A DNA stretch of 55,829 nucleotides from Rhodobiaceae bacterium (GTDB lineage: Bacteria > Pseudomonadota > Alphaproteobacteria > RS24): contig JAHEIG010000009.1 of NCBI GenBank assembly GCA_024639515.1, forward strand, positions 1 through 55,829, written 5' to 3'. The position numbers and the translations under genes were made by a program. Every line of letters starts with the position of its first letter. The stretch's first letter is position 1. The notes below the pieces were generated by a model. The model saw only the letters and a program-made list of their open reading frames with translations. It did not search any database and was not told the origin of the DNA. Shown here in pieces: positions 10,207 through 50,922 of this stretch.

Positions 10207-11427
10207 CTATAGTTCCACGTCGAGATGCTCGGCAACGGAGAACACGTCTTTGTCGCCACGCCCGCACATATTCATCACTAGCAAATGGTCGGACGGCAAG
10301 TCAGGGGCAATTTTACTGACATGGGCCAGCGCGTGAGACGGCTCCAACGCCGGAATAATACCTTCGAGACGGGTGATTAACTGGAACGCTTCCAGCGCTT
10401 CGGCATCTGTGGCCGAGACATAATTGACCCGCCCGCTATCGCGCAAGAAGGCGTGTTCGGGGCCAATGCCGGGATAGTCTAGTCCGGCAGAGATTGAATG
10501 GCCTTCGATAATCTGGCCGTCATCATCCTGCAGCAAATAGGTCCGGTTGCCGTGCAACACGCCCGGCTCGCCGCCAGCCAAAGAGGCCGCGTGATCGGGC
10601 GTATCCAGCCCCAAGCCACCAGCTTCAACACCGATAATATTGACCTCGGCATCGTCGAGGAAAGGATGGAACAGACCCATGGCATTTGAGCCGCCGCCAA
10701 TGCAGGCGACCAGAGAGTCCGGCAAGCGGCCCTCGCGCTCGAGCATTTGGGTTTTGGTTTCTTTACCGATAATCGACTGGAAATCGCGCACCATGGCCGG
10801 ATAAGGATGCGGGCCAGCGACGGTGCCGATGATGTAGAAAGTATCGTCCACATTGGCCACCCAGTCGCGCAAGGCTTCGTTCATCGCGTCTTTCAGCGTA
10901 CCGGCACCTGCCGTGACAGCGCGAATATCAGCCCCCAGCAGTTTCATCCGGAAAACATTGGGCTTTTGCCGCTCAATATCAGTGGCCCCCATAAACACCG
11001 TGCAGGGCAGGCCAAAGCGCGCCGCCACCGTGGCCACAGCCACGCCGTGCTGACCGGCGCCGGTTTCGGCGATGATGCGGGTTTTGCCCATCCGTTTGGC
11101 CAATAGAATTTGCCCGAGGCAATTATTGATTTTGTGCGAGCCGGTATGGTTCAGCTCGTCGCGTTTCAAATAGATTTTGGCGCCGCCATAATGTTCAGTC
11201 AGGCGCTCAGCAAAATAAAGCGGGCTTGGGCGACCGACATAATGGGTTTGCAGGTCAATCAATTCGTCTTCAAAAGCCGGGTCTTGCTGGGCCGCGCCAT
11301 AGGCTTTCTCGAGATCGAGAATAAGCGGCATCAGGGTTTCAGCCACAAAGCGTCCGCCGTATAAACCGAAGCGGCCATTTTCGTCTGGGCCTGCGCTATA
11401 TGAATTTTTCTTGTCCACGATTTCCAA
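10207..11427 (-). CDS. trpB: Tryptophan synthase beta chain
   Basis: [40 protein letters not shown] motifs. Confidence 0.97.
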
Positions 11428-34715: not shown

Positions 34716-34804
34716 GTTTCGTCTCTCCCCTCTAGAGATGGCATTCCCTTTGATGACCCTGATACCAGTAAAATGGGGGCTTTTCGGCCACCTATTTACA
34801 TATG

Positions 34805-34950
34805 AACACACAAAAAGCATATAAAAGGTAACATTTTGTGTCGCTGTGCTGATAATTTTTGGAAAGTTTAATAATTCATAGAAGGTAATTAAAACTTAAC
34901 CAAACTACCAGCACAGCAACACTGCTAGAAGAGCTCTCGACGATACACTG
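34805..34950 (-). repeat. Inverted copy (X) of the primase 3' end plus downstream structured element found at 37915-38060 (Y)
   Basis: Reverse complement gtgtatcgtcgagagctcttctagcagtgttgctgtgctg...cagcacagcgacacaaaatgttaccttttatatgctttt aligns with 37917-38054 with scattered substitutions. Confidence 0.88.
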
Positions 34951-35056
34951 CTTGCCCCTGGCAAGCACGCGCTATCCTAAAATCTGAATAAACACCCCGC
35001 CGCCTGGTCAGGTATGTCGCATTTTGGTCTACCATCTGGTCTACCATAACAGCCAT
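34925..35056 (-). pseudogene. Fused remnant: integrase N-terminus joined in frame to primase C-terminus (43 codons)
   Basis: Minus strand reads MAVMVDQMVDQNATYLTRRRGV|YSDFRIARACQGQAVYRRELF*; first part matches integrase MVDHMVDQNATYLTRRRGV, second matches primase PDFRMARTNRGLEVYRRELF*. Confidence 0.88.
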
Positions 35057-35319
35057 GATCTCTGCTCCTCAAACAAATATGCTTGAAGATCAATGGCTTG
35101 GACCGTGAAACACGGTGCTTGAAACTTGAAAATGGTGCCCAGGAGATGGGTTCGATGCCTTTCCTAGGCTCCTAGCAAGCCCTGACCTTCAATAATATCA
35201 ATAGGTTAGCACTTTTGGGGGCTCGTGCAAATCCTATTTGTGGTCATCCATATGGTCTACCAAGCAAAGACCCGAGTTCCGGGTCACACGGGCCGTGAAA
35301 CATGGGTAATTGGGGGTTA
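35020..35319 (+). repeat. att-like unit A: full attP-like site (int-side arm, tRNA-Leu 3' core at 35133-35146, distal arm)
   Basis: Shares int 5' end/leader/core with unit D and int 5'/leader/core/distal arm with unit B (inverted); 35117-35319 identical to reverse complement of 44389-44591. Confidence 0.9.
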
Positions 35320-35624
35320 CTGAAGCAGGGGTCGGAATGGGTTCGGGTGTTAATTGCCCCCCCCCACCCCCAATAGTTTACGGGCGGCGGCTCGGAACAT
35401 GGGGCTTGATTCATGGATCGGTGGAAGCGGCGCGCGCAAATACCAAATCTGAATGCTTTTCTTATCGTTCCTCAGGGGCAATGACCCAGAGGGCTATGCT
35501 GGTTGAAAAAATAGAGAGAATCAGGAAAAAATACAATTTAACTAAAACCTGCGGGGCAGAGTTTTGGGCAATAATAAAATTCAGTAGGGTTACATTCGAG
35601 GCCCTAGATTCACCCCTGCCTTCG

Positions 35625-35678: not shown

Positions 35679-37940
35679 ATGACTCTGAAAAAGTTGAAAA
35701 TTAGTTTCGGTGATAGCGCCGAGAAACTCGTCGACAATGGCTATGAACCGCTTCCGCTTGCTATTGCCGCGAAACGCCCAATCATCAAAGACTGGACCAA
35801 CCAAGATCTCTGCGATCCCAAAGTTATCGAGCATCTAATGAAAACCTACCCAACGGCTGGCGTTGGCGTGAGATGCGGAAATTTGATTGTGACCGATATC
35901 GATGTGAGAGACCAAGCCGCAAGTCACGCGATCCGAGAACTGGCGATCGAGCACTTTGGCGAGACACCTCTTATCCGCTTTGGGAACAGGCCAAAACAGG
36001 TACTCTTGTTTCGACGAAAAGGAGCTGCCTTTTCAAAGAAGACAACAGCAGCCCTCAGCCTCATGAATACAAAAGCACAAGTTGAGGTCCTTGCAGGCGG
36101 CAGTCAAATGGTGGCTTTCAATATCCACCCTGACACGGGGCAACCCTATGAGTGGGAAGACGAAAGTCCATTGGACGTCCCGCTCGAGGATCTCACCGAA
36201 GTATCCGAAGGGGACATTGACGCCTTTTTGTTGGAGGCTGAGCAGCTGCTTATTTCGGAATTCGGTGCGATTAAGTTAGTCGGTTCAGAAAACAGTTCTA
36301 AAGCAACTAGCGCCTCTACAGGACAGCCACAAAAGCTTGACCTAGCTATGGCGGAAAGTGCCCTGTTAGTGCTCGACCCACAGGATCGTGAAACATGGAT
36401 TAAGGTTGGACACGCGCTAAAAGCAACAGGCAATCCGGCTGCGTTCGAGCTATTCGCCAGTTGGTCGAAGAAAAGGCCGGACGGTTCAGTGCCGCATAAT
36501 TTCCTCTCTGATGAAGACGTGCAGCAAACTTGGGAAGGCATGAAGCCAAATAGAACGGGCATTTCTGCCATTTATGCCGAGGCGAGGCGTCAAGGTTGGG
36601 AGGGCGGCCCTTACCGCCTATCGTCGACCACTCATACCGCTATTGCCCGTTATATTCTTGAGGTCAGCAAAGCAGATGGAACGGGCTATATTTTTGATGA
36701 AGGACATTTATATCAATACGTCGGAAGTCATTGGGAAGAGATAGGCCATAATGAGCAACGCAGAATAGTTCATGAACTAGATGGCCTGCGGGTAGGTAAC
36801 AAAACAATTTCCGCCAATAAACCTTTTATAAATGGTGTGCTCACTGAGCTAGCAGCAATGGCTGAGCAGAAAGGCTTCTTTGAGTGCGCACCGAGGGGTG
36901 TAAATGCCAGAAATGGTTTTGTAGCGATCAACCAAGTCGGTGAGGTAAACTTCCGTCCGCACGACCCCAAGCTGGCCCAGCGCGCCACCCTTGAGATTTC
37001 TTGGAATGGCGGCGATGTAATAGAGCCAATTGGTATTCTGAAGAGCTACCTTGATACAACATTTGGAGACGTTAGCGAAGGCAAGCAGCGTCTTGCTTTG
37101 CAGGTGTTGGGGGTTGCTGCTATGGGAGCCTCTACGATACTCCCTGCCGCAAAGGCCTTTATTCTTCATGGCCCATCAGCTTCCAACGGCAAATCACAGT
37201 TTCTTGAACTGGTCAGAGGTATGGTTCCATCAAGGGTCGTTGGTAACGTGCCCCCTGCAGATTTTAGCAAGGAGCAGGCAGTCGCCGAATTAGTTGGCAA
37301 GCTAGTAAATGTTTGCGACGAGCTTGATGCAGGAAAATCACTCGGCTCAGACCGGTTCAAGGCTCTTGTGACTGGCGATCCTGTCTCGGCGAAAATCGTC
37401 TACCAGAGAGTGTTTAGCTTTGTGCCAAAAGCGTTACACATCTTCGCGACAAATCAGCTTCCGAACTTTTCAGGTGGAGTTGATCCGGGAGTAAAGCGTC
37501 GTTTGATTTCGATCAATTTCGAAAACTCCATCCCAAAGCAGAAACGGATACCTCACATTGCTCAGAAGATTTTAAAGGAACACGGCGAAGACCTTCTAGC
37601 CCTTGCAATTACAGCTGCTGCTGATGTTTTCTCGAATGGTGGCTATTCAATACCTGAAAGCGTAATGAAAGACACGGAAACTTGGTTCTTTGAGGCTGAC
37701 CTTGTTCTTTGGTGGATTGAGGAAGGCGGCCTAGATCGAAATGTTTTTCAAAATGGAATATCGGCGCTAACGCTCTTTGCCGTCTTTAAAGAAGACACTT
37801 CTGACTTAGCAGACCCGAGATACCCCATCAGTCACAGAAGTTTCACCGGTAGACTGAGACAAGCTTTAGCGGGGAATCCAGACTTCAGGATGGCTCGCAC
37901 AAATCGAGGACTAGAAGTGTATCGTCGCGAGCTGTTCTAG
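35679..37940 (+). CDS. Bifunctional DNA primase-polymerase / PriCT-2 / D5-family (P4-type) helicase
   Basis: Prim-pol YEPLPLAIAAKRPIIKDW...VGVRCGNLIVTDIDVRD; PriCT-2 DRETWIKVGHALKATGNPAAFELFASWSKK; SF3 helicase FILHGPSASNGKSQFLELVRG and KALHIFATNQLPNFSGGVDPGVKRRLISINF. Upstream 123 codons of the listed ORF look non-coding. Confidence 0.92.
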   Translation: MTLKKLKISFGDSAEKLVDNGYEPLPLAIAAKRPIIKDWTNQDLCDPKVIEHLMKTYPTAGVGVRCGNLIVTDIDVRDQAASHAIRELAIEHFGETPLIRFGNRPKQVLLFRRKGAAFSKKTTAALSLMNTKAQVEVLAGGSQMVAFNIHPDTGQPYEWEDESPLDVPLEDLTEVSEGDIDAFLLEAEQLLISEFGAIKLVGSENSSKATSASTGQPQKLDLAMAESALLVLDPQDRETWIKVGHALKATGNPAAFELFASWSKKRPDGSVPHNFLSDEDVQQTWEGMKPNRTGISAIYAEARRQGWEGGPYRLSSTTHTAIARYILEVSKADGTGYIFDEGHLYQYVGSHWEEIGHNEQRRIVHELDGLRVGNKTISANKPFINGVLTELAAMAEQKGFFECAPRGVNARNGFVAINQVGEVNFRPHDPKLAQRATLEISWNGGDVIEPIGILKSYLDTTFGDVSEGKQRLALQVLGVAAMGASTILPAAKAFILHGPSASNGKSQFLELVRGMVPSRVVGNVPPADFSKEQAVAELVGKLVNVCDELDAGKSLGSDRFKALVTGDPVSAKIVYQRVFSFVPKALHIFATNQLPNFSGGVDPGVKRRLISINFENSIPKQKRIPHIAQKILKEHGEDLLALAITAAADVFSNGGYSIPESVMKDTETWFFEADLVLWWIEEGGLDRNVFQNGISALTLFAVFKEDTSDLADPRYPISHRSFTGRLRQALAGNPDFRMARTNRGLEVYRRELF

Positions 37941-37942
37941 CA

Positions 37943-38027
37943 GTGTTGCTGTGTTGGCAGTTGGGGTAGGTTTTAATTGCCGTCTATGAATTATTAAACT
38001 TTTCAAAAATTATCAGCACAGCAACAC
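37943..38027 (+). repeat. 85-bp element (Y) with 14-bp terminal inverted repeats, immediately after the primase stop
   Basis: GTGTTGCTGTGTTG ... CAGCACAGCAACAC; second copy of identical length at 34838-34922. Confidence 0.8.
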
Positions 38028-38054
38028 AAAGCATTACCTTTTGTATGCTTTTTT
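38028..38054 (+). terminator. Probable intrinsic terminator of the primase transcript
   Basis: AAAGCAT-taccttttgt-ATGCTTT followed by ttt. Confidence 0.6.
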
Positions 38055-38073
38055 AGCGTTCAAATAAAAGTAA

Positions 38074-38094
38074 GGGTGCCTTAAGGCGCCCTTT
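38074..38094. terminator. Second hairpin terminator candidate
   Basis: GGGTGCC-TTAA-GGCGCCC followed by ttt. Confidence 0.55.
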
Positions 38095-38282
38095 GCTCGG
38101 AAGCCTGTCCAAAGCGTGCCTTAATTACCCCTTGGCAGGCAGTATTCCGATACATTTTGGTCTAGAGTTAGGACACAAGGATCTATTTTTCTGCAATTAT
38201 GGTGCAAGTCTATACTCAGTTATCGAGAGGTTTAAATTCACAAAGCCTAGTTTAGGTCTGGACTTTAGAAATTCAGATTTCA

Positions 38283-39776
38283 TTAATCTACCGCCAAATC
38301 AGCCATTGGCGCTTTCCGCTCTGCACCGCCAAATTCATCGGGGTCCAACATCACACGCCACAAAGGTATGCTGGTAGATGGACCAATCGGTGAGCTGGTC
38401 AAAAGTGCATGCAACCTTTCAACGACATCTGATCTTTCCGACGCAAGGTCGCGACTTTCAGTTTCGTCCTGCTTAATATCGTAGAGCTGCAGCGCGCCAT
38501 TATTTCGTTCGATGAGCTTCCATCGTCCGCTGAAGAGTGCCTTGCCGTCCATGCCCATCGTCACGAAATCTGAAGGCACAATCTCCCTTGCTTCGGCCAA
38601 TGCCGACCACATGCTCTTGCCATCGGTCAATTGACCGGTTTTTGCACTGCCGGTCGCGGCTTCCATCAGGGTCGGCAACAAATCAGTGACGTGCAGGCGA
38701 CCGTCATAGTCTGCATCCGTTAATTTGCCCGGCCAATTAATGATGGCGGGGACACGAATGCCGCCCTCTAAAACCGAGTTTTTGCCGCCGCGTAATGGGC
38801 CGTTATCGGCGGCGCCGTCAAACATGTTGGTGCGCATGAATTCCAGAAATCGACCGGGAATGGGAGTGCCGAACAGGCTTTCCAGACCACCTATAAGGTG
38901 ATAGGCAAAATTCGGTAGCAAACGATGCTCGGTTAGGCCGCCATTATCGCTCATGAAAAAGATGAGTGTATCTTCGCGAATCCCTTGCGCGTCAAGCTCA
39001 TCCATCAATTTGCCGATGGCGACATCCATTTCACTGACCATTGCGGCATGCGCTCGCCGTTTTCCCGAAGCAATATGAGCATATTGAGCCAGTGCTTCTG
39101 CCGGTGCCTCATTGGGCAAATGCGGGGCGCCGAGCGCAAGATACAGGAAGAACGGTTTTTCCTTATTGCGATTGCGGACGACACGCACGGCTTCAGCAGC
39201 AAGCAATTGCGTTGTATAGCCTTCATCGCGCGCTGTTATGCCGTCGCGCTGCCAGTCATAATGGCCGCCATGCACATGGTCCCAATAGCCGACACCGCCA
39301 GTCAAATGGCCGTAAAAACTGTCAAACCCGCGCGCATTCGGCAAATGAGCTTTTTTGCGCGGCCCTAAATGCCATTTCCCGGCTAATGCGGTTTGATAGC
39401 CATGTTGTTTCAAAAATTCCGGCAATAATTTGCGATCCAGCGGCAAGCCGTTTGGATTGAGTTTGGAATAGGGGCGCGTCACGCCAAGGCGCAGCGCAGA
39501 TTGACCGGTCAGCAATGAAGCGCGGGTTGGACTGCAAGTCGGGTGGGCGTAAAAGCGCGTTAAACGTTTTCCGGTCGCGGCCAGCCGATCAAGATTTGGG
39601 GTTTTGATTTCACTGCCATTAAATCCGACATCGCGCCAACCCAAATCATCGGCCAAAATGACGATGATATTCGGCTTGGCAAGTGCCGGACTTACCGATA
39701 AGGCAATCAGAAAAATTAATATAAACCGCATGATAAATGCCTCCTTTTGAGTAAAGGGAAGGTTAATTCCTGACAT
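38283..39776 (-). CDS. Secreted arylsulfatase (S1-type), Cys-type formylglycine site; start may be internal at MRFILIF
   Basis: Signal peptide MRFILIFLIALSVSPALA; PNIIVILADDLGWRDVGFNG; CSPTRASLLTGQ active-site motif. Confidence 0.92.
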   Translation of the reverse strand: MSGINLPFTQKEAFIMRFILIFLIALSVSPALAKPNIIVILADDLGWRDVGFNGSEIKTPNLDRLAATGKRLTRFYAHPTCSPTRASLLTGQSALRLGVTRPYSKLNPNGLPLDRKLLPEFLKQHGYQTALAGKWHLGPRKKAHLPNARGFDSFYGHLTGGVGYWDHVHGGHYDWQRDGITARDEGYTTQLLAAEAVRVVRNRNKEKPFFLYLALGAPHLPNEAPAEALAQYAHIASGKRRAHAAMVSEMDVAIGKLMDELDAQGIREDTLIFFMSDNGGLTEHRLLPNFAYHLIGGLESLFGTPIPGRFLEFMRTNMFDGAADNGPLRGGKNSVLEGGIRVPAIINWPGKLTDADYDGRLHVTDLLPTLMEAATGSAKTGQLTDGKSMWSALAEAREIVPSDFVTMGMDGKALFSGRWKLIERNNGALQLYDIKQDETESRDLASERSDVVERLHALLTSSPIGPSTSIPLWRVMLDPDEFGGAERKAPMADLAVD

Positions 39777-39803
39777 TTGTCAATTAATTATTGACAAATG
39801 TCA
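39771..39803. promoter_or_regulatory. Tandem TetR-type operators between sulfatase and tetR
   Basis: TGACATTTGTCAAT-taatt-ATTGACAAATGTCA; each half is itself a TGACA(TT/AA)TGTCA palindrome, centres 21 bp apart. Confidence 0.75.
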
Positions 39804-39824
39804 ATTACGACTTTTAATAAAGGC

Positions 39825-40469
39825 ATGGAAAAAGCCATCGCAAAATTATCTGCCAGTCAAAAGCCAACAAAAGGCGAGAAAGCCGTTACATCGTTAATGG
39901 ATGCTGCACTCGCCTTGCTGGGCGCAAACCAATCAAGTGAGTTAACCCCCGGTCTTATTTGTCAGCAAGCGGGTATGAAGCGACCCAGCTTCTATACTTA
40001 TTTCAACTCAGTGGATGAGCTTTTGGATAGTTTATGTGCTCGCGAAGTCGACAATTTCGAGGCAACTTATTTGCGCCATCATGCCGAAAATGACAGTCCT
40101 TTATCGCGGATTGTACGAATACCGCTTTATATTTACGCCCGCGCGCAGCTAGAAATAGGTTGGTTTAAGGTCATCAGTCATTCCGTGACATGGAAAAGAG
40201 AGCAGCGCGAAAAGCGCTTGACGCATTTGCATGCCGATGTGAGAGCAGCTATCGCTTCCGGCCAATTGAAAATGAGCGATGGTCAAATAGATGGGTTTAT
40301 TTTTCTCTATCTGGCGGCAATCTCGCTGCTCGTCGATAGCCAAAATGAGCGGGCGGTCGCAGACGGGCCGTCGACCGAAGCCCTCAAATTGCTTTTCAAA
40401 GGCTCCGGTGCGGATATGGAAACGGTTGAACGCTTGCTGGCTGCCCCGCTTGAGGAGCTTCTAGAATGA
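39825..40469 (+). CDS. TetR/AcrR-family regulator (ORF opens at 39798; start at 39825 keeps the operator outside the CDS)
   Basis: KAVTSLMDAALALLGANQSSELTPGLICQQAGMKRPSFYTYFNSVDELL. Confidence 0.82.
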   Translation: MEKAIAKLSASQKPTKGEKAVTSLMDAALALLGANQSSELTPGLICQQAGMKRPSFYTYFNSVDELLDSLCAREVDNFEATYLRHHAENDSPLSRIVRIPLYIYARAQLEIGWFKVISHSVTWKREQREKRLTHLHADVRAAIASGQLKMSDGQIDGFIFLYLAAISLLVDSQNERAVADGPSTEALKLLFKGSGADMETVERLLAAPLEELLE

Positions 40470-42085
40470 GTGATGTCATTATCGTCGGCGGCGGCCCAAG
40501 CGGTATGATGGCTGCCTTACTTTTGGGCAAGCACGGCCTGACCAGCCATATTGTTGAGCGGCGCGAAACGATTTTGCAGGCTCCGCGCGCCCATGCGGTA
40601 AACGGCAAAACCATAGAAGTTTGCAGTTCGGCGGGCATTGCGGCAGATGAGATATATGCCGCAGGCATGCCGCCATCGCGCGGGGGCATGGTCAATTTCT
40701 GGTCGACCCTTTCGGGCACTTATTTGGGCGGACTGCCTTATGAGCGCCAAGACGCGGCAGTGCTTGATCTGGTGTCATACAGGCTGGTCAACATTTCGCA
40801 GCCGCAATTTGAAGCCATATTAGAGCGCCATGTCGAGGCCAATGACATGATTACCCTGTCGCGCGGCGTAACGGCGGGGGAACTTGTTGAAAATGATGAT
40901 GGCATTACGCTGGCAATTGAAGGCGCCGATACGAACCGGCTTCAGGCCGATTATTTGATTGCGGCTGATGGTGCCGGGTCCAGTCTGCGCCGTCAAATGG
41001 GCATTGAAATGGAAGGGCCTGACGCGCTTCAGCATTTCATCACAGTTCATTTTCACGCCGATTTATCGGAGCTTATCGGTGACAAGCCGGGGATTTTGCA
41101 TTGGATTATGGAGCCGTCCGCCAGCGGCACCCTGATTTCTTATGATGACGGTCAAAATTGGGTTTTGATGCATGGCTGTCCGCCCGGCCAGGAAGACCCG
41201 AAACTCTATGATGAGGCGCGTTGTATGGCTTTGATTAACGCAGCACTCGGCCGCGATGATATTGAGGTCGCGATGAAAAATGTTAGCCCGTGGGTGATGA
41301 CCGCTCAGGTCGCTGCCCGTTACCGTCACGGGCGCGCTTTTTTACTGGGCGATGCGGCACATCGTTTTCCGCCGGCCGGTGGACTTGGGCTCAATACAGG
41401 CATGGGGGACGCACAAAACCTCGCCTGGAAATTGGCCATGGTCAAAAACGGCATGGCCGATGACTGCTTGCTCGACAGCTATGGGAGTGAGCGCAAGGCC
41501 GTGGCCGAAACCAATAGCGCGCAAAGCATGGAAAACGCCATGCGCATGTTTGAATTGATTGGTTTTTTGCTAGGGCCTGAACCGGAAAATATGCAAGCGC
41601 ATTTCGATGAGATTTGTTCTAATGCTGCCAATTCCCCTGAACTGGCCGCCGCAATAGCCGCGCAAAAAGCCCATTTTGACAGCCTACGCCTGCAGGTCGG
41701 CTATAGCTATGGCAACCATGATGATACGGGCTTGGGCATTGACGATTACCGTCCACTTTTCCGCATTGGCGATTGTGTGCCGCACCACAGAATAGCAATA
41801 AATGGCACTGATATTTCGCTCACCGAATATCTGCAAGGGACGCAGTTTACCCTTTTGGTCAGCCGACATCATCAGCCCCCAAAAGGCGAAATCGCGCAAT
41901 TAAGAATATTGCATGACGGCACGGATTTCACCGGTGATTGGTCGGCCGGACTTGCGGAATATGATGCGGATTTGGCCGCACTGATGGTACGCCCTGACGG
42001 ACATATTGCGGCGCATTTCCATGCTGCTGATTTATCGCAAGATAATGTTGCGCAGGCATTAGAGAAAAATTTGCGAGGGGCATAG
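40466..42085 (+). CDS. FAD-dependent monooxygenase (PCP/MhpA-like aromatic hydroxylase)
   Basis: VIIVGGGPSGMMAALLLGKHGLTSHIVERR; GADGAGSSLRRQ-like; AFLLGDAAHRFPPAGGLGLNTGMGDAQNLAWKLA. Confidence 0.9.
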   Translation: MSDVIIVGGGPSGMMAALLLGKHGLTSHIVERRETILQAPRAHAVNGKTIEVCSSAGIAADEIYAAGMPPSRGGMVNFWSTLSGTYLGGLPYERQDAAVLDLVSYRLVNISQPQFEAILERHVEANDMITLSRGVTAGELVENDDGITLAIEGADTNRLQADYLIAADGAGSSLRRQMGIEMEGPDALQHFITVHFHADLSELIGDKPGILHWIMEPSASGTLISYDDGQNWVLMHGCPPGQEDPKLYDEARCMALINAALGRDDIEVAMKNVSPWVMTAQVAARYRHGRAFLLGDAAHRFPPAGGLGLNTGMGDAQNLAWKLAMVKNGMADDCLLDSYGSERKAVAETNSAQSMENAMRMFELIGFLLGPEPENMQAHFDEICSNAANSPELAAAIAAQKAHFDSLRLQVGYSYGNHDDTGLGIDDYRPLFRIGDCVPHHRIAINGTDISLTEYLQGTQFTLLVSRHHQPPKGEIAQLRILHDGTDFTGDWSAGLAEYDADLAALMVRPDGHIAAHFHAADLSQDNVAQALEKNLRGA

Positions 42086-42094
42086 GAGAGAATT

Positions 42095-42874
42095 ATGGAT
42101 TTGGGACTGAAAGGGAAGAAGGCCATTATTTGCGCTTCATCACGCGGACTTGGCTTTGCGTGCGCCACGGCTTTGGCGCGAGAAGGGTCGGATGTAATCA
42201 TTAACGGGCGCGATGTCGAGGCTCTAAAAGCGGCAGAAGCGGAGATCGCAGAGCTGCAAGGCGGCAGTGTCACCTCCGTCATTGGTGACCTCAATACACA
42301 AACTGGCCGTGATGCAATTTTGCAGGCTTGCGAGGCGCCTGATATTCTTGTCACTAATAATAATGGCCCATCGCCCGGCACTTATGACCAATGGGATGAA
42401 GCCATGTGGCAGGAGGCTTTCGCCGCCAATATGATTGCCCCCGCACTGCTCATTCGCGCCGTCATTGACGGCATGCGTGCCCGCAAATTTGGCCGTATTG
42501 TCAATATCACTTCGGCCATGGTCAAATCCCCGCATCCCAATATGGGGCTTTCCACATCCGCCCGCTCGGCACTGACGGCGTTTTCCAAAGGGCTGTCGAA
42601 GGAAGTCGCGAAGGATAATGTAACGATAAACAATATGCTGCCCGAACGTTTCGACACGCAGCGTCAGCATCAAATGGCCGAACTGGCTATGGCATTAAAA
42701 AATATAACTTACGAAGAGGCGCGCGCTGAAATGGAAGCGACCATCGCAGCCGGTCGCCTTGGCCGACCGGATGAGTTTGGTGACGCATGTGCTTTTCTAT
42801 GCAGTGAACAGGCCGGTTTTATTTCCGGCCAGAATTTACAATTGGATGGCGGCTCTTATGTCGGCCTGATTTAG
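42095..42874 (+). CDS. SDR-family oxidoreductase
   Basis: KKAIICASSRGLGFACATALAREGSDVIINGR; VNITSAMVKSPHPNMGLSTSARSALTAFSKGLSKE; ISGQNLQLDGG. Confidence 0.9.
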   Translation: MDLGLKGKKAIICASSRGLGFACATALAREGSDVIINGRDVEALKAAEAEIAELQGGSVTSVIGDLNTQTGRDAILQACEAPDILVTNNNGPSPGTYDQWDEAMWQEAFAANMIAPALLIRAVIDGMRARKFGRIVNITSAMVKSPHPNMGLSTSARSALTAFSKGLSKEVAKDNVTINNMLPERFDTQRQHQMAELAMALKNITYEEARAEMEATIAAGRLGRPDEFGDACAFLCSEQAGFISGQNLQLDGGSYVGLI

Positions 42875-42884
42875 CGAGGAGAAA

Positions 42885-43301
42885 ATGTATACGAATTTGA
42901 TTGCCCATATATTGGTCAGCGTGGTGGCCGTAATGATTATGATTGGCCCGATGGTAGCTGATTTCAACCGAACGCATGCGACCAATCCGCTGTGGACGCC
43001 GCATGCACGCTTTCACGTTGTTTGGCAGGTTTTGACCAATTCGACTTTGGCTTTACTCACGCTTTACTTCATTTGGGGCTCAGGCCATCTCATGCTCGGC
43101 GCGCTGATGAATTACATCTGGATTGCCACTTTTTTTGCGACACTCGCCGCCATGCCGATGTTTGAGGGCGCGCTGGCCGATGAAAACGGCATTAAGCCAT
43201 TTATCTGGAAGTTCGGCGATAAGATGGTGAAAGTCGATACCAACCTTTTCGGCGCTTGCATGATGACTGTATTGAATACAGCTGCATTGGTCATCAGTTA
43301 G
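42885..43301 (+). CDS. Small membrane protein, DUF6640-like
   Basis: Four hydrophobic segments, FNRTHATNPLWTPHARFHVVWQV. Confidence 0.6.
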   Translation: MYTNLIAHILVSVVAVMIMIGPMVADFNRTHATNPLWTPHARFHVVWQVLTNSTLALLTLYFIWGSGHLMLGALMNYIWIATFFATLAAMPMFEGALADENGIKPFIWKFGDKMVKVDTNLFGACMMTVLNTAALVIS

Positions 43302-43306
43302 AGGCA

Positions 43307-44359
43307 ATGAAAATGGTTCTGCAAATTATCGGCCTTGCTTTCGGTGCTCTCATAATTGTTTTTGTGGCGCGCAGCTTTTACGTTTCACAACCGCTTTTTA
43401 AGGAGAAAATAAGGCAAGCCCCCGACAGTGCTTTTTCCTTGGCTCCGGTTGAGCAAGCGCTGAGTTTTGCGCGAACGAAAAACGGCAAGAGCCTGCTGGT
43501 GGTGGCAATGAATCGCGAAGGCGTGCGCGCCATTGACCTTGCCGCAGCAACAGCGTCTCAAGGCAGCGAGCCGTTGGATTTTTTACGCTCTTTGGGCGAT
43601 GAAAAATTGCGCGCGGTGATGAACAGCGACGCGACGATTTACAATTGGCGGGATCTGGATGTGCCGTTTGATTCGCAAAGCGGCATTATTGCGGCGGGGG
43701 TTAATTTTAAGGCCCATGCGGAAGAGACCGGCCTCGAAGACGGGCCGTTTCTGTTCCCGAAACTGTCAACGCCGAGCGCTTGGCAGGCGCCGGTCAAAAA
43801 ACGCACAAGGCTCGATTATGAGGTCGAGCTCTGCGCTGTAGCCATTGAGGATATTGCGCTCGGCAAAAGCGGGCGCTTCGCTTTTGTGCTGTGTAATGAT
43901 TTGACCGACAGATGGGCGCTGTTGCGTCATATTAATCTTAAAAAGCCAATGGGGCGCACCGGTTTTCCTGAGGGCAAGGGCGGCGATGGCATGCTGCCAG
44001 TCGGTGCCATTCTCATCGTGCCGCGCAAACCGGATTTTTACCAACAGATTGAATTGGGGCTGGCGGTCAATAATCGACTGCGCCAGCGCGACAGTGCCGG
44101 CATGATGATTTGGGATGCGCCATCAATCGGGCAAAAAGCTCTAGCGCTTTGCGATAAAGATTTTTATCTGCATGGCGAGGTTATTAGGCTGGCAGAATGT
44201 GGCGATTTAAAAAAAGGCACAGCCATATTGCTTGGCACACCAGAGGGCGTGGCCTTTCAAATGCCTAACATATGGATGCCGTGGGCTTACTTGCGCCAAG
44301 GTGATGCGGTAATGGCTTTCGCCTCGCATTTGGGTGTTTTGGAAACCCAAGTAGAATAA
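43307..44359 (+). CDS. Fumarylacetoacetate hydrolase-family protein with N-terminal membrane anchor
   Basis: TM MVLQIIGLAFGALIIVFVARSFYV; AAGVNFKAHAEETG, TRLDYEVELCAVAI, ILLGTPEGVAFQ. Confidence 0.82.
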   Translation: MKMVLQIIGLAFGALIIVFVARSFYVSQPLFKEKIRQAPDSAFSLAPVEQALSFARTKNGKSLLVVAMNREGVRAIDLAAATASQGSEPLDFLRSLGDEKLRAVMNSDATIYNWRDLDVPFDSQSGIIAAGVNFKAHAEETGLEDGPFLFPKLSTPSAWQAPVKKRTRLDYEVELCAVAIEDIALGKSGRFAFVLCNDLTDRWALLRHINLKKPMGRTGFPEGKGGDGMLPVGAILIVPRKPDFYQQIELGLAVNNRLRQRDSAGMMIWDAPSIGQKALALCDKDFYLHGEVIRLAECGDLKKGTAILLGTPEGVAFQMPNIWMPWAYLRQGDAVMAFASHLGVLETQVE

Positions 44360-44388
44360 TGAAACTTGCGCGCTGGGAGATATACCAC

Positions 44389-44689
44389 TAACCCCCAATT
44401 ACCCATGTTTCACGGCCCGTGTGACCCGGAACTCGGGTCTTTGCTTGGTAGACCATATGGATGACCACAAATAGGATTTGCACGAGCCCCCAAAAGTGCT
44501 AACCTATTGATATTATTGAAGGTCAGGGCTTGCTAGGAGCCTAGGAAAGGCATCGAACCCATCTCCTGGGCACCATTTTCAAGTTTCAAGCGCCGTGTTT
44601 CACGGGACAAGCCATTGATCTTCAGACATATTTGTTTGAGGAGCTGAGATTATGGTTTCATGGTAGACCAGATGGTAGACCAAAATGCG
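44389..44689 (-). repeat. att-like unit B: full attP-like site, inverted relative to A
   Basis: 44389-44591 is identical to reverse complement of 35117-35319; then leader and int 5' remnant atggtagaccagatggtagaccaaaatgcga. Confidence 0.9.
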
Positions 44690-44690
44690 A

Positions 44691-44963
44691 TTATGAGATC
44701 AAAAAAACCAAAATGCATGAGATGGCTATGAGCCATAGCAGAAAGCCATATCGCAAAAAGGCCGGGGCAAGCTTCAATTCCATAAACTGATAGCCGATAA
44801 CCCAAATTTTGACACCGGCCGTTAGCAAAATTGCCGTGGTGGTGGCGTCGGCCATTTTCTGCTCACCCTCGGCGAGCCACCAGGCCAAGATGGTTACCGC
44901 AACCAGCAGAAACCATGCCCATGTCATCAAACTTAATCCAATAATTTGTTTTGAATCGTTCAT
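44691..44963 (-). CDS. Cytochrome c oxidase subunit IV-like/NorF-like small membrane protein
   Basis: MNDSKQIIGLSLMTWAWFLLVAVTILAWWLAEGEQKMADATTTAILLTAGVKIWVIGYQFMEL. Confidence 0.65.
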   Translation of the reverse strand: MNDSKQIIGLSLMTWAWFLLVAVTILAWWLAEGEQKMADATTTAILLTAGVKIWVIGYQFMELKLAPAFLRYGFLLWLIAISCILVFLIS

Positions 44964-44968
44964 AAAAC

Positions 44969-45538
44969 TCACACCAGATAGAACAGGGCAAACAGCATGA
45001 TCCACAGCAAATCGACCAAGTGCCAAAAAATGGCCCCACTTTCCAGCCCGCGTTGTGTTTCCGGGGTGAACGGGGCTTGCGATTTCTTGAACAGAAAGCT
45101 GAGTATGACAACGCCGACAAACACATGAATTGCGTGAATGGCCGTGAACACGAAGTAATACATGAAAAAATCATTGGTCATCGGGGTCATCCCGTCAGAG
45201 ACCTTGGCATTCCACTCAAAGACTTTGTTTATGAGAAATATAACACCGGACAAAATCGCCAGCCGGAACCAAATGCGATTATCTCGGCCATCGTCTAATC
45301 GAAAACGTTCAACACCGATCGCCACGAAAAAAGAGCCGGTGAGCAGAAGCAGTGTATTAGCAAGGCCGAACCTCAAATCAAGCGTGCCGCGCGCGCTTGA
45401 AAACACGCCTCCCTGTTCCTGATTGCCAATGGCAATCAGAATGAAAAACAGGGAAAAGACCAGCAAGTCCCCTGTTACAAAGGCCCAGATACCGGGTTCC
45501 CCCGGTATCCGGCTTTGCGCTTGGCTTTTCTCATTCAC
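44969..45538 (-). CDS. Heme-copper oxidase subunit III-like (NorE-like) protein
   Basis: PGEPGIWAFVTGDLLVFSLFFILIA ... FVFTAIHAIHVFVGVVIL ... GAIFWHLVDLLWIMLFALFYL. Confidence 0.82.
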   Translation of the reverse strand: MNEKSQAQSRIPGEPGIWAFVTGDLLVFSLFFILIAIGNQEQGGVFSSARGTLDLRFGLANTLLLLTGSFFVAIGVERFRLDDGRDNRIWFRLAILSGVIFLINKVFEWNAKVSDGMTPMTNDFFMYYFVFTAIHAIHVFVGVVILSFLFKKSQAPFTPETQRGLESGAIFWHLVDLLWIMLFALFYLV

Positions 45539-45561
45539 AGGATAAACAGCCTTTATAAGCT

Positions 45562-46290
45562 CTAGCTATTTTCGTCATTGGCGATCTTGATCATCACCCA
45601 GGACATAATGGCTATCCAAGCAAAGAATGCGATGAAGGGCAGATACATGGCAACAATGCCGTGCCAGGAAAACGGCCCGTCTTTGAAAAATATGACCATT
45701 TGGCCCGGCGCGAAGAGCAAAGCCGCCCATAAGTTTACATAAGCCACCCAGCGCGGAAATGGTTCTCTTCCCGGCTCGGAGAAAAAGATAGGCAGGGCTA
45801 TTAACACGCACCAGCCGCCAAATAAGGGCACAGAGAAAACTGCCAAAAAGTAGGCAAAATCAGCCCACATGAGCAATATAGATGGTGCGTAGGTATCCGG
45901 TCGGAAAACCATCAGCGACCAAGCAAAGGCCACCAGCAAAGCGATGGTGGTGCCACCTGCTGTAAATACGAGTTGCACGTACGAAAACACCGGGCTTGTT
46001 TCGAAGCGCCGGGTTTGCGCTGCAATACCTGCGCCGAATGTGCCGAAAAGGGCAAAAGAGGCGATCATGAAAATCGAGCCTACCCGCATATTGAGCAGGT
46101 TTTCATTGACCTTTGCGACGACCTCAGAAGGTGTGTCACTGGCATTCAGGAGCGGCGGCAACATGCCCCCTAACCAAACGCCGCCTATAATAAATAGGAT
46201 AATTGCCGCATATCCGGTGTAGCCGCAAAATGCCAAGGATTTCCTCGACAGGCTATCTTGCGCCAATATGTTGCTCGTTATTTCACTCAT
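45562..46290 (-). CDS. Polytopic membrane protein of unknown function (242 aa)
   Basis: Multiple TM segments; transcribed with the oxidase-like genes. Confidence 0.6.
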   Translation of the reverse strand: MSEITSNILAQDSLSRKSLAFCGYTGYAAIILFIIGGVWLGGMLPPLLNASDTPSEVVAKVNENLLNMRVGSIFMIASFALFGTFGAGIAAQTRRFETSPVFSYVQLVFTAGGTTIALLVAFAWSLMVFRPDTYAPSILLMWADFAYFLAVFSVPLFGGWCVLIALPIFFSEPGREPFPRWVAYVNLWAALLFAPGQMVIFFKDGPFSWHGIVAMYLPFIAFFAWIAIMSWVMIKIANDENS

Positions 46291-46321
46291 TTTTTTCTCC
46301 CCTAGTAAGAATGGTGATTTT

Positions 46322-47650
46322 CTAAAATTCCTCCGCCCGATATCGGAGCAAATTCATTGCCGCTCTCTCGCCACTATTTACAGCGGCCTCTACTCCGGCT
46401 TGGGAGAAATAATCTCCCGCCAGTTTTATGCCTTCCGGTAATAGAGAATGAACCTTGTCGAGCATTTTGTAGTGACCCGGTTTGGCTATGGTCAGCCCGT
46501 TTTTGTAACGGAACAAATGAACAAAGCTTGGCTTTTGTGCCTGGCCAAAAGCGGCATTTACCTGTTTGACCGATTCCTCTTTTATGTCGTCATCGCTCAT
46601 ATCATTAAGTGCTGGCGTGTTGAAATAGACCCCAACCATTTGCGCCCCCTTCGGGACCGATGCCGGCAAGCGCCGTCCATGCAAAACCATAGCCCCAACA
46701 TTGCGAACGCCACCTTCGCCAACGGGCAACACAATATCTGTTGGATAATCGGGCCATGGGTCCTCGTCATACCCCACGGCAACATGGGCATATTCGGTGT
46801 AATGCGTACTCATGAGCCGATGATAGGCATCCTCCGACACATGCTCTTTCAAAAGGTCGGCAGCAATAAAGGCTTCCGTCGCAATGATAATGCTGTCGAC
46901 CAGAACACTGCCGCCCGTATAAGAAACGCGCCACATTTGACCTTCTCGCGTCAAACCTTCAACCGGGGTCGAGACATGAATCTTGTCGGAAGAAACATTG
47001 TCCAAAAACCATTCATTGATTTGCCCAATGCCACCCTCCGGTGATGACAATGCGATTTTGTGCCCCTGCTTCATCAGTGCCTTGGGAAAGGGAGTTGATA
47101 ATTCGCGTAATGGCACTGCATAAAGAAAATCCATAATCGGGCGCATGACATATTCAAATGCCTTGTCACCCAAGTTTGCACGCGACCAATCTTCCAAATT
47201 TTCATCACCGTCATATCTGGCAAGCTGCGATCCGTCGAACGGGTTGCGCGCGCTCGGCGTAAAAAGCAAGCGCAGTCCGGTCACGATTATGCGGAGTTTG
47301 TCTCGCAGCCTTAGCGTTGGAACCTTTAGAAAGCTAAAAAACGAACCAAGCCGAACCGGGTATCTGGACCTATCATCATCCATAAGCTCAGATGCACCGG
47401 TCCAGGGCACCAATTGTTTTTTTCGTCCCATTTCTCGCAGCAAGGCCATGGTGCGCGGATAGATGCCTCCCATAAGAAACAGAGCTCCAGTTCCCAGATT
47501 GTAACCGTCATCTCGATGGAGCTGTTTTGTACGCCCTCCAACTTTCTCGGCCGCCTCAAACAGGTCAAAATCAATTTTGTTTTTCTGCAAGGTATAGGCA
47601 GCTGCACAACCTGCAGGCCCGCCCCCGATGATTGCCACCTTCATGCTCAA
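46322..47650 (-). CDS. FAD-dependent amine oxidase/protoporphyrinogen oxidase-like oxidoreductase
   Basis: MKVAIIGGGPAGCAAAYTLQKNKIDFDLFEAAEKVGGRTKQ; C-terminal KLAGDYFSQAGVEAAVNSGERAAMNLL. Confidence 0.85.
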   Translation of the reverse strand: MSMKVAIIGGGPAGCAAAYTLQKNKIDFDLFEAAEKVGGRTKQLHRDDGYNLGTGALFLMGGIYPRTMALLREMGRKKQLVPWTGASELMDDDRSRYPVRLGSFFSFLKVPTLRLRDKLRIIVTGLRLLFTPSARNPFDGSQLARYDGDENLEDWSRANLGDKAFEYVMRPIMDFLYAVPLRELSTPFPKALMKQGHKIALSSPEGGIGQINEWFLDNVSSDKIHVSTPVEGLTREGQMWRVSYTGGSVLVDSIIIATEAFIAADLLKEHVSEDAYHRLMSTHYTEYAHVAVGYDEDPWPDYPTDIVLPVGEGGVRNVGAMVLHGRRLPASVPKGAQMVGVYFNTPALNDMSDDDIKEESVKQVNAAFGQAQKPSFVHLFRYKNGLTIAKPGHYKMLDKVHSLLPEGIKLAGDYFSQAGVEAAVNSGERAAMNLLRYRAEEF

Positions 47651-48291
47651 ATTCCGTTCTTAGAAATTGCTTTTGTTTGCAAGGCTCCTGCAACGAGTTG
47701 ATGGAGAAAAACCTCAATATCTATAGCTGCCGGAGTGGTAAGCTTCATTTGCGCCGCCATTTGTCCACCGCCGATGATGATATACGCGGCAATTTCTGGA
47801 TCTAAATCTGGCGATAGTTCTCCGCTTTTTTGGCCAACGCTAATGATTTCACAAAACAAATTTGCAACTCTGCTTTGCAAGTCTTCGTAAAGCGTCCAAG
47901 TGGCATTCTCGAAAGCTGTGCTCCAATCCAGCCAAATTTTCATGATTGCAGAATCTAGCTCGACGGTGTTTGAAAATGCTCGCGCCACATTCAATATTTT
48001 ATCAAAAGCAAGTTCATCCTCAGCGGCGGCGTTCCAAACAATTTCCGTTATACGGGTATCGACCAGTTCGAGTACCGCCTCCGTCAGGCTCTCTCGTGTA
48101 TCGAAATATGCATAAACGGTTGGAACGGAAACACCGGCCTTGAGAGCAACGTGTGAGCGACGTGCGCCTTCAATGCCGTGATTTACATATATTTCTATTG
48201 CACAGTCGATGAGTTGTTCACGTCTTTTTTCTGGCGAAAGTTTCGGAGCTCTCTTGGGTCGATTGGTAATTTTCAGGTTTTGCTGGCTCAC
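47647..48291 (-). CDS. TetR-family transcriptional regulator
   Basis: SPEKRREQLIDCAIEIYVNHGIEGARRSHVALKAGVSVPTVYAYFDTRESL. Confidence 0.88.
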   Translation of the reverse strand: MSQQNLKITNRPKRAPKLSPEKRREQLIDCAIEIYVNHGIEGARRSHVALKAGVSVPTVYAYFDTRESLTEAVLELVDTRITEIVWNAAAEDELAFDKILNVARAFSNTVELDSAIMKIWLDWSTAFENATWTLYEDLQSRVANLFCEIISVGQKSGELSPDLDPEIAAYIIIGGGQMAAQMKLTTPAAIDIEVFLHQLVAGALQTKAISKNGI

Positions 48292-48391
48292 AATAACTTC
48301 CTTGATTGAGTTGCATTATACTGATACTAATATCACTGAAGAAAGTTCATCACAACCGGAATTTTCGCCAAAATAAACGATTGGAGGGAGG

Positions 48392-49435
48392 ATGCTCGAG
48401 GTTCTAGATTCTGAAAAGCAGTCACGTTGGTGGGTTGAGGAAAAAATAAAATCTTACGACCCGGAAACTGAGTATTCAGAAATTGTGTCGCTTATGGCGC
48501 AGTATCAGTTGGATGAGTTTACGCTCAATTTTTTGGTTACCATTCTGACAAGCTATACTCTTAAGCCGTCGCATATGGCTGAGACCCTTTCCATAACAAA
48601 CAAAGGATTGCGTCGGCCCAATCAACGTATGCAGGACACTTTGGATTTTTTCTGGATTTGGCACGTGTTTGGCCCTGACGCAGAGGAGACCAAAAAATCT
48701 CTTTCGAGATTGAACAGATTGCACGCAGGGGTCGCCCGCATGTTGCCAGGACATTTTGAGAATGGTGACGATTTCATATATGTGCTTGGTCGGCTATTTG
48801 TGCTGCAAGATCGATTGCTCAAGAACCTGAACATAGTTGGCATGAATCCCCATATAAAGGCGGCGCTGTTCAATTTCGCCAGAGCATTGTCCAAACATTT
48901 TCTAACTGAAGGCGACAAGCCGGTTGAGGGATTTCCGGACACTCCGGAAGCGCTTGAGGCATTTGTTGATGACTGGGAAAGCAAAAATCACGGCTTTTCG
49001 CCGGTGAGTCGCGACATCGTGAACTCTTTTGTTCACGCTTTTGGAGACAGATGGTTTTCGCACCCATTCAAGCCAATCGGAAGGTGGGTTTGCATCGAGG
49101 CACTTGAGGACAGTTTTTTAGAGCATGTTCGCATTAAGCCCCTAAAGGGTATTCGTAAATGGTTGGCGCGCGGCGCTCTCAAAAGTCTGTTTTTCTATAA
49201 AACAAGAATTGCTGCAGATAGAAAAACATCGGCCTATGACGAGCGGGTATTATTGAGCAAAAAAGAATGTGCGGAGATGGATGAGCGCGCCGTTAGGCGC
49301 GTGAGCGAGTTTGGCTGGACAAAGGGAGGAAAGGATTCCGTGGGCCTAGGAGATGGACCGAGCTTGGCTGGAAAATGCCCTGTCATGAGCCATACCCAAA
49401 CATCAAGCGAGGTCAAACGCCCAGTTTCCAACTAA
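48392..49435 (+). CDS. Possible MpaB/DUF2236-like oxygenase (tentative)
   Basis: LNRLHAGVARMLPGHFENGDDFIYVLGRLFVLQDRLL ... IGRWVCIEALEDSFLEHV; divergent from TetR; family assignment by resemblance only. Confidence 0.4.
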   Translation: MLEVLDSEKQSRWWVEEKIKSYDPETEYSEIVSLMAQYQLDEFTLNFLVTILTSYTLKPSHMAETLSITNKGLRRPNQRMQDTLDFFWIWHVFGPDAEETKKSLSRLNRLHAGVARMLPGHFENGDDFIYVLGRLFVLQDRLLKNLNIVGMNPHIKAALFNFARALSKHFLTEGDKPVEGFPDTPEALEAFVDDWESKNHGFSPVSRDIVNSFVHAFGDRWFSHPFKPIGRWVCIEALEDSFLEHVRIKPLKGIRKWLARGALKSLFFYKTRIAADRKTSAYDERVLLSKKECAEMDERAVRRVSEFGWTKGGKDSVGLGDGPSLAGKCPVMSHTQTSSEVKRPVSN

Positions 49436-49502
49436 TATGGGCCGGCAATGCCGATGACCGCGACTGAATAGCTATAAGAAGGCTTGCTAGGGGCCTGGGG
49501 TC

Positions 49503-49583
49503 GGCATCGAACCCATCTCCTGGGCACCATTTTCAAGTTTCAAGCGCCGTGTTTCACGGGACAAGCCATTGATCTTCAAGCAT
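49503..49583 (-). repeat. att-like unit C: core plus int-side leader only, inverted relative to D
   Basis: ggcatcgaacccatctcctgggcaccattttcaagtttcaagcgccgtgtttcacgggacaagccattgatcttca shared with unit B; abuts the integrase 3' end. Confidence 0.85.
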
Positions 49584-49601: not shown

Positions 49602-50759
49602 CTAAATTATAATTTTCTGAAGCCACTTTTGCTTCATGGCAAGGTCATACCCATCGCCATATGAGTGGCCTATGCCGGAAGTGCTCCAACCACCTATGGC
49701 ATCAGAAATGTCTGACGGACACTCAACCGCTCTTAAACGATCACGCAGAGCATGCCGGAATGAATGAACCACGCAACCTTCAGGAACTCTGGGCTTCAGC
49801 CATTTGTTAAGCGCAGCGCTTGCTGAGTTGGCATTGCATTTAGACGCACTGGTGTAATTCGGGAAGGCAAATCGCCCCTCAATCTGTACGATCCGTTCCG
49901 CAGCCCAATAGCTGTATCCGATAAGTGGCACGAGCCTTTCGCTTGATGTGGTCTTAAGCTTGCGCCATGGGTGCTCATGAATGATCAAGTGGGGTATTTC
50001 AGTATCAAGAACGATATCCTCTTTTATCAAACCCAGTGCTTCTGAGAGGCGGAGACCCGTATCGCTGATTAGAGCAAGTAGATGGCGGTTTGGATCGTCC
50101 ATCGCTTCACATTCCGCCTGCAATATTTTGATTGTTTTTACCGGCATGGTTGGCCGGGTTTTTGCCCTGTCATCGGCAGGAATGAATATTTTTGCGAATG
50201 GATTGGTGTTTGGCAGTCCGTGTTCTTGGATGGCCAAGGAGACAATAGATCGTATTGAAGCGAAACACCTCTTTACCGAAGAAGAGGCAAGGCCTCTTTG
50301 AATCAAATGATCCCGGAAACTTGCCCCATCGGCAGAAGTCAGCTCACTGATAGAGACATCGCCGCTCAAAACCATCAATTGCTCAATGTTACGCCGCGCA
50401 GTCCGCTCAAACGTTTCCCCCTTCCCTTTGCCCTTAAGACGCAGGTAGAGGTCGAGAGCTTCGGATAATGTAATCGATGCGGCCGGTTGAGCTGGGCTCT
50501 CCAGCGTCATCGAATGTTGTGAAATTATCTCTTCGAGCTTCATACCGTTCCAGAAGCTCTCCAGCTTTTCTGACAAAACAATTGCCGAAGCGATAGCCTT
50601 GCGGCGCGACTTCGTTTTAAGCGACACGACAATTCGCTCTTTGCCCAGTCGCTTTTGAAGTTCCTTCGGAATACGCCGCGTATAGTAGTAATGCACACCC
50701 CGACGCCTGGTTAGGTATGTCGCATTTTGGTCTACCATATGGTCTACCATAGAAACCAT
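49602..50759 (-). CDS. Tyrosine-type site-specific integrase
   Basis: DUF6538-like N-terminus YLTRRRGVHYYYTRRIPKELQKRLG; catalytic region DTGLRLSEALGL ... HSFRHALRDRLR ... SYGDGY; adjacent to tRNA-Leu. Confidence 0.92.
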   Translation of the reverse strand: MVSMVDHMVDQNATYLTRRRGVHYYYTRRIPKELQKRLGKERIVVSLKTKSRRKAIASAIVLSEKLESFWNGMKLEEIISQHSMTLESPAQPAASITLSEALDLYLRLKGKGKGETFERTARRNIEQLMVLSGDVSISELTSADGASFRDHLIQRGLASSSVKRCFASIRSIVSLAIQEHGLPNTNPFAKIFIPADDRAKTRPTMPVKTIKILQAECEAMDDPNRHLLALISDTGLRLSEALGLIKEDIVLDTEIPHLIIHEHPWRKLKTTSSERLVPLIGYSYWAAERIVQIEGRFAFPNYTSASKCNANSASAALNKWLKPRVPEGCVVHSFRHALRDRLRAVECPSDISDAIGGWSTSGIGHSYGDGYDLAMKQKWLQKIII

Positions 50760-50850
50760 GATCTCTGCTCCTCAAACAAATATGCTTGAAGATCAATGGC
50801 TTGGACCGTGAAACACGGTGCTTGAAACTTGGGAATGGTGCCCAGGAGAA
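50721..50850 (+). repeat. att-like unit D: int-side arm, leader and core at the intact tRNA-Leu 3' end
   Basis: cattttggtctaccatatggtctaccatag...ttgaagatcaatggcttggaccgtgaaacacggtgcttgaaacttgggaatggtgcccaggaga matches unit A up to the core and then diverges into tRNA. Confidence 0.9.
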
Positions 50851-50922
50851 GACTCGAACTTCCACACCCTTGCGAGTACTAGCACCTGAAGCTAGCGCGT
50901 CTACCAATTCCGCCACCTGGGC
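50836..50922 (-). tRNA. tRNA-Leu(CAG), island integration target
   Basis: Minus strand GCCCAGGTGGCGGAATTGGTAGACGCGCTAGCTTCAGGTGCTAGTACTCGCAAGGGTGTGGAAGTTCGAGTCTTCTCCTGGGCACCA; loop TTCAGGT. Confidence 0.97.

Follow-up and report, generated by a model that had tools for sequence, protein, structure and literature searches.

A short integrase-primase fusion frame as the probable left-end scar of integrase-less cargo islands in relatives of the marine PS1 clade

What does a minus-strand reading frame of 43 amino acids record, if the start of an integrase gene (int) runs directly into the end of a primase gene? The frame lies at positions 34925-35056(-) of a stretch of 55,829 nucleotides (hereafter the window) from G000, a MAG of 1.72 Mb in 136 contigs, the host of which is a relative of the marine PS1 clade, to which the isolate IMCC14465 belongs. 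The comparison set consisted of 28 genomes of the same family (an order-level search gave the same 28), mostly fragmented MAGs with contigs that break at att repeats. Twenty regions were mapped for modules, and motif scans covered both strands of 433 kb of loci, those of G000 included. DNA of the left end (LE) or right end (RE) of the elements described below was present in 16 of the 28 genomes, and scanning genome contigs with int gave matches only at loci of PS1-clade type.

The frame encodes MAVMVDQMVDQNATYLTRRRGVYSDFRIARACQGQAVYRRELF, with coordinates and peptide as quoted in a preliminary description of this DNA, and joins int codons 1 to approximately 23 to the last approximately 20 codons of primase. 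It is part of a scar region (34788-35146(-)) in which a copy of the tRNA-Leu 3' end, the integrase upstream arm and the int start are joined to the primase end and downstream DNA. The int half (34992-35146) matched 50695-50849, where the tRNA-Leu 3' end, the upstream arm and the first part of the resident int lie, over 155 nt at 95% identity (E=6.6e-65); inside int the match covers nt 1-70, with 62 of 70 positions identical. The primase half (34800-34952) matched 37913-38065, comprising the primase 3' end plus the DNA behind it, over 153 nt at 87% identity (E=1.6e-47). By gapped alignment the primase part begins 71 nt before the end of the stop codon, with a score of 244 relative to 32 for the best of 200 shuffles. 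At the protein level, SDFRIARACQGQAVYRRELF and PDFRMARTNRGLEVYRRELF are identical at 13 of 20 positions (BLOSUM62 score 63), the runner-up among the 62,081 stop-free 20-mers of the window scoring 36. Since the matches of both halves extend far beyond the ORF, they reflect DNA homology and no chance resemblance of peptides. The derivation of the two halves from the integrase N-terminus and the primase C-terminus, as first proposed, was thus borne out, homology beyond chance having been found for both. Also supported was the proposed ancestral order att-int-...-primase with both genes on one strand; the resident primase lies on the plus strand, opposite to both the fused primase fragment and the resident int. 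The scar, referred to as copy A, consists on the minus strand of an LE copy at 34992..35146 (tRNA core, arm and int nt 1-65), with the att core TCTCCTGGGCACC, a copy of the tRNA-Leu 3' end, at 35134..35146 and a candidate arm repeat within the int codons (TGGTAGACCAGATGGTAGACCA) at 35025..35046, followed by the primase 3' end (last ~71 nt) and downstream DNA at 34788..34995, with an inner hairpin inside.

The junction itself is shared with relatives. The junction motif ATYCRGATTTTA occurred six times in the 433 kb (both strands), in G000, G006, G022, G023, G026 and G013, each time 54-67 nt past the int start of an int-less copy and nowhere else; these six genomes represent two genera, the sites are at tRNA-Leu and tRNA-Arg, and the cargo behind the junction differs. 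An alignment of twelve int-less LEs with full int genes, made without the motif, placed the junction in register in copy A, G006, G026, G023 and G022. Copy A and G006 share long primase homology with an identical start base (-71), while the primase stretch of G022, G023, G026 and G013 is too short to be significant by itself, and the shared junction is the sole tie to copy A. In two genomes, G006 (tRNA-Leu) and G022 (tRNA-Arg), the fused end forms the left end of an element directly on the tRNA. The fusion had been attributed to a local deletion within a full int-to-primase element once located at this spot, and such an element would account for the two halves in the expected order and for the presence of both resident genes in the same window. 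The recurrence of the same junction at the homologous site of five further genomes (G006, G013, G022, G023 and G026), with different cargo behind it and in two of them tRNA-anchored, nevertheless makes a local deletion improbable: the same junction with different cargo in several genomes indicates an inherited left end and not a deletion made at the window locus, and its presence at tRNA-anchored left ends elsewhere indicates that the fused end is older than its arrival in the window, and has travelled. A misjoining of contigs at repeats of 100-300 bp during assembly of this MAG would be in line with its 136 contigs, with the inverted repeats described below and with the breaks in relatives' contigs at the same repeats. 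It is very improbable, however, as the junction recurs in independent assemblies, including that of G006, a genome of three contigs. From these comparisons we infer that a whole lineage of cargo islands without integrase has this fusion as its left end.

Int-less elements were found in the mapped regions of relatives at both tRNA-Leu(CAG) and tRNA-Arg(ACG), with attR-type cores of Leu type (TCTCCTGGGCACC) or Arg type (CCCCGGTGCGCC) following the target tRNA, and the int remnant in the 12 int-less LE copies ranged from 14 to 185 nt. A complete int-less element is present in G006, where tRNA-Leu is followed by the LE, 48 nt of int, the primase 3' end, 3.7 kb of cargo (sulfate permease, a sulfur dioxygenase-like MBL protein and two Sulf_transp-type proteins), an RE and the core as a direct repeat. 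Separately, a cargo-free, miniature-like unit of ~300 bp, made up of LE, primase-downstream block and part of an RE, was observed at tRNA-Arg in G001 (L048 6957-7255).

The fusion being 'in frame', a point made in the preliminary description, holds for copy A, where the frame is open, and carries no weight, because sister copies contain stops or frameshifts or lack a start codon. That the 43 codons encode a small protein with a function, such as a leader peptide or a decoy Int N-terminus, might be suggested by the open frame, the Shine-Dalgarno-like GAGGAG of int upstream and a frame of 39 aa in G013/G026 whose first part is the same. The frame is broken in G006, G010, copy B (described below) and others, however (B is frameshifted, G006 has no ATG and a stop, and G010 has a TAG), the C-terminal half varies between copies, and the peptide has no Pfam match. 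On account of the broken frames in sister copies a functional protein was rejected as extremely improbable, and the ORF is best described as a non-functional scar.

Retention of the int start in these copies probably has its reason in the DNA. Int codons 4-11 (MVDQMVDQ) are encoded by ATGGTAGACCAK ATGGTAGACCAA, a 22-bp tandem DNA repeat, and the RE carries the same motif (TGGTAGACCATATGGATGACCA); the int start would have been kept because of this shared repeat. Within the 433 kb the arm repeat was found only at LEs, REs and int starts, and the window contains six matches, one the reverse of another, relative to 0.01 expected. In sister integrases (47% identical) located at tRNA-Leu(GAG) and tRNA-Leu(CAA), the repeat straddles the ATG, with the first unit upstream, and is therefore hard to account for as a protein motif. 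In 10 of the 12 int-less copies, identity of the repeat to that of the resident int is 0.86 or higher; the mean for the same 12-copy alignment is 0.52 for int nt 51-70 and 0.42 for nt 71-120. Copies in G001 and G022 (Arg) have lost the repeat entirely or by half and may for this reason be dead, and mini copies in G019 and G022 (Leu) resemble deletions that extend between the repeats of LE and RE. The repeat is probably a cis-acting, arm-type binding site for Int, a candidate function that gives a testable reason for int-less islands retaining the first int codons.

The remainder of the window shows in which setting the scar is found. The resident int (49602..50759(-)) encodes a tyrosine recombinase of 385 aa (DUF6538 and Phage_integrase), with the candidate arm repeat within its coding sequence at 50728..50749(-), and starts beside the target tRNA-Leu(CAG) (50836..50922(-), core 50837-50849). 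A search for solved structures gave none close to it (best E 0.029), and no mention of DUF6538 was found in the literature searched. The resident primase (35679..37940(+)) is of P4 type, with Prim-Pol, PriCT_2, D5_N and DUF5906 domains. Other Prim-Pol genes of the family (near tRNA-Met in G004/G014, near tRNA-Val in G008, near tRNA-Ser in G025 and in a phage-like region in G010) belong to unrelated elements, the nearest being 36% identical over part of the protein.

Four exact copies of the core TCTCCTGGGCACC are present in the window, at 35134 (-), 44562 (+), 49516 (+) and 50837 (-), so that several units are separated by copies of the tRNA end. Junction A is formed by the scar and an RE at 35149..35325(-), with a candidate arm repeat at 35241-35262. 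Cargo X (38283..44359; sulfatase, TetR, FAD hydroxylase, SDR, DUF6640 and FAA hydrolase) is followed by junction B (44386..44690(+)), of opposite orientation to A, which comprises an RE (44386-44559), a core (44562-44574) and an LE with 40 nt of int. Cargo Y (44691..49435; COX3-like, hypothetical, amine oxidase-like, TetR and MpaB-like) extends to junction C (49481..49583(+)), made up of 33 nt of RE, a core (49516-49528) and LE 1-70, an inverted copy placed just after the int stop codon. Junctions A, B and C all have the form RE-core-LE that is expected of internal junctions in stacked elements. The cores of B and C, in direct orientation and 4954 bp apart, bound cargo Y, and the block of primase and cargo X (35.3-44.4 kb) sits between the facing RE copies of A and B, which are 99.4% identical. 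A and B are inverted repeats of 306 bp at 96% identity; 270-bp inverted repeats (35053-35322 and 44386-44655, 97% complementary) flank the 9 kb with primase and cargo X, and an inversion or misassembly of this segment is possible. Of the stacked integration at this tRNA inferred earlier, repeated integration at tRNA-Leu(CAG) stands, whereas the fusion does not itself adjoin the tRNA, which is located 15.8 kb from the ORF; only the copy of its 3' end (core 35134-35146) does. The 'second, deleted element' was an understatement, the window comprising four att-type junctions, two cargo units oriented against int and an inverted att behind int.

No RE or core that could serve as the right end of the copy-A island was found at 25.6-34.7 kb, nor any RE left of 34788, and the island may therefore be truncated. 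The cargo linked to it (26.4-34.7 kb) is 52-76% identical to a cluster beside an RE in G015; its assignment to the copy-A island is less certain.

The inverted LE copy approximately 18 nt after the int stop codon is found in all three genomes for which the int 3' end is available (G000, window 49481-49583; G026, L052 14945-14990; G004, L055 5-74), with a core in two of the three. In G000 and G004 the core of junction C agrees with the one preceding that int; the G026 copy has lost its core side. Junction C could have been the integration site of the cargo units that face against int in the window and in G013/G026. We tentatively put forward a broader scheme, which may well prove wrong, in which a single int-less, primase-less derivative founded the family of cargo islands with the scar end (the int start serving as arm-type site), and in which an int module between two inverted att sites, with a core corresponding to the local target (Leu in G000, a different, Arg-like core in G004), lets cargo accrete in either orientation. 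The G004 element (L055 1-3955) was also observed to lie on an apparent tRNA-Arg 3' fragment, behind an integrase-like gene beside tRNA-Arg(CCG), and looks like two element families stacked at one tRNA.

Not only the int start but also the primase side of the scar might have been kept for a function. The block consisting of the primase 3' end and downstream DNA (37913..38245(+) in the window) is retained in copy A, in G010 (L047 15864-16180; 100% identical to copy A over 145 nt), in G001 and partly in G006, and a hairpin behind the primase 3' end (window 34840-34930) has a DNA fold z=-7.2 in copy A, the resident copy being weaker (z=-2.7). If the block were a replication origin, the derivative would keep two cis sites, arm and origin. 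Beyond the junction, however, the block is absent from copy B, G013, G022, G023, G026 and the mini copies, and the outer hairpin arm is missing in G001 and G006; this addition to the preferred reading is thus rather unlikely.

Cargo X is 85-96% identical at the protein level to its counterpart in G023, which belongs to another genus, and cargo Y 86-95% to that in G015, of a third genus. The corresponding values for five host genes next to tRNA-Leu, each against its best relative, are 61-84%. This difference between cargo and host genes across genera gives indirect support for movement of the cargo between genera. A divergent cargo X (sulfatase, TetR, FAD hydroxylase and FAA hydrolase) was also observed directly behind tRNA-Leu(CAG) in G010 (C81, L105 821-8065), with only about 20 nt of LE kept. 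In G023, contig C187 (L050) opens inside an FAA hydrolase gene (1-356) and closes at the 3' end of the same gene (10941-10982), followed by an inward RE-core-LE; these ends would fit a unit of about 11.7 kb, either circular or in tandem, in which there is a gap. Genes for an arsenate reductase-like LMWP, an MIP channel, an LpxH/PlcP-like phosphoesterase, a GT4 glycosyltransferase and a DAG kinase (L051 6786-10208, L050 7184-10606) look like a phosphate-starvation lipid-remodelling set. Taken with the sulfur and aromatic oxidation genes, the arsenate reductase-like, aquaporin-like and lipid-remodelling-like cargo suggests that such passengers carry nutrient and redox traits between genera.

The ORF is thus probably a non-coding left-end scar of an integrase-less cargo island, belonging to a lineage moved by an Int encoded elsewhere, with the int start kept as an arm site. 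This reading, in which we have fairly high confidence, builds on what was observed: the homologies, the junction common to several genomes, the ends of the elements, direct repeats of the core that agree with the tRNA targets, and cargo in common. The parental element would have had the order [tRNA core]-arm-int-...-primase-downstream-...-right end, and a deletion in an ancestor would have brought int nt ~1-70 up against the final ~71 nt of primase. The shortened element would have retained its ends, acquired varied cargo and entered tRNA-Leu(CAG) and tRNA-Arg(ACG) sites across PS1-clade genomes, presumably mobilised by Int from elsewhere, which acted either in trans or, where an int-bearing element was stacked next to it, in cis. 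Int codons 4-11, with the tandem repeat common to the RE, would have been retained as a probable arm-type Int site. In the window, the scarred element would share its stack on tRNA-Leu with a complete int module and with two more cargo blocks bounded by att sites. The short ORF could serve as a molecular tag for tracking these passenger islands as a lineage through the genera of a streamlined clade of marine bacteria.

Judged from sequence, the units are best classed as CIME/tycheposon-like accreted islands in the marine PS1 clade. CIMEs of the Streptococcus ICESt1 family have lost integration and transfer genes, keep attL and attR, and are stacked with int-bearing elements (PMC5704250). The islands described here resemble them in the loss of integration and transfer genes (a Pfam scan of the G006 and G022 cargo gave metabolic genes only), in the kept att sites and in stacking at one site; attL and attR with matching cores were found in G006 (the tRNA-Leu core equals the RE-flanked core), the set being incomplete for copy A. 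They differ from CIMEs in that no conjugation genes were seen, a shared int/primase scar marks one int-less lineage, and units occur in both orientations. The ssrA islands of Dehalococcoides are metabolic islands arranged in tandem, in which the end of an RNA gene is directly repeated, approximately half of them lacking an integration module (PMC3146451), and share this tandem design, but involve a serine recombinase and the tmRNA gene instead of a tyrosine recombinase and tRNA genes. Small modules of int and P4-type primase, as in the window, are known from PICMI and P4-like satellites (PMC10803314), which differ in site and are packaged satellites instead of cargo islands; AlpA-like regulator or packaging genes were not found among the large ORFs scanned by Pfam. 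Tycheposons and VEIMEs are tRNA-anchored, have a tyrosine recombinase and nutrient-related cargo, and are found in marine hosts (PMC10872708, PMC10803314). The PS1-clade islands, as tRNA-anchored cargo elements with a tyrosine recombinase in marine bacteria, are alike in all these respects, a likeness of design; no sign of capsids or vesicles was seen for them. The arm repeat and int were absent from viral contigs in IMG/VR, and no relative could be confirmed there when int, primase and the two arm motifs were used as queries. As in KplE1, in which attL overlaps the int promoter region (PMC2951348), int starts beside the tRNA with its start region overlapping attL, but in the PS1-clade islands the candidate arm repeat falls inside the coding sequence of int, and derivatives without int have retained it. 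Relative to these known systems, the distinctive points are the scarred LE, which tags the lineage, the location of the repeat within int and the presence of a second, inverted att.
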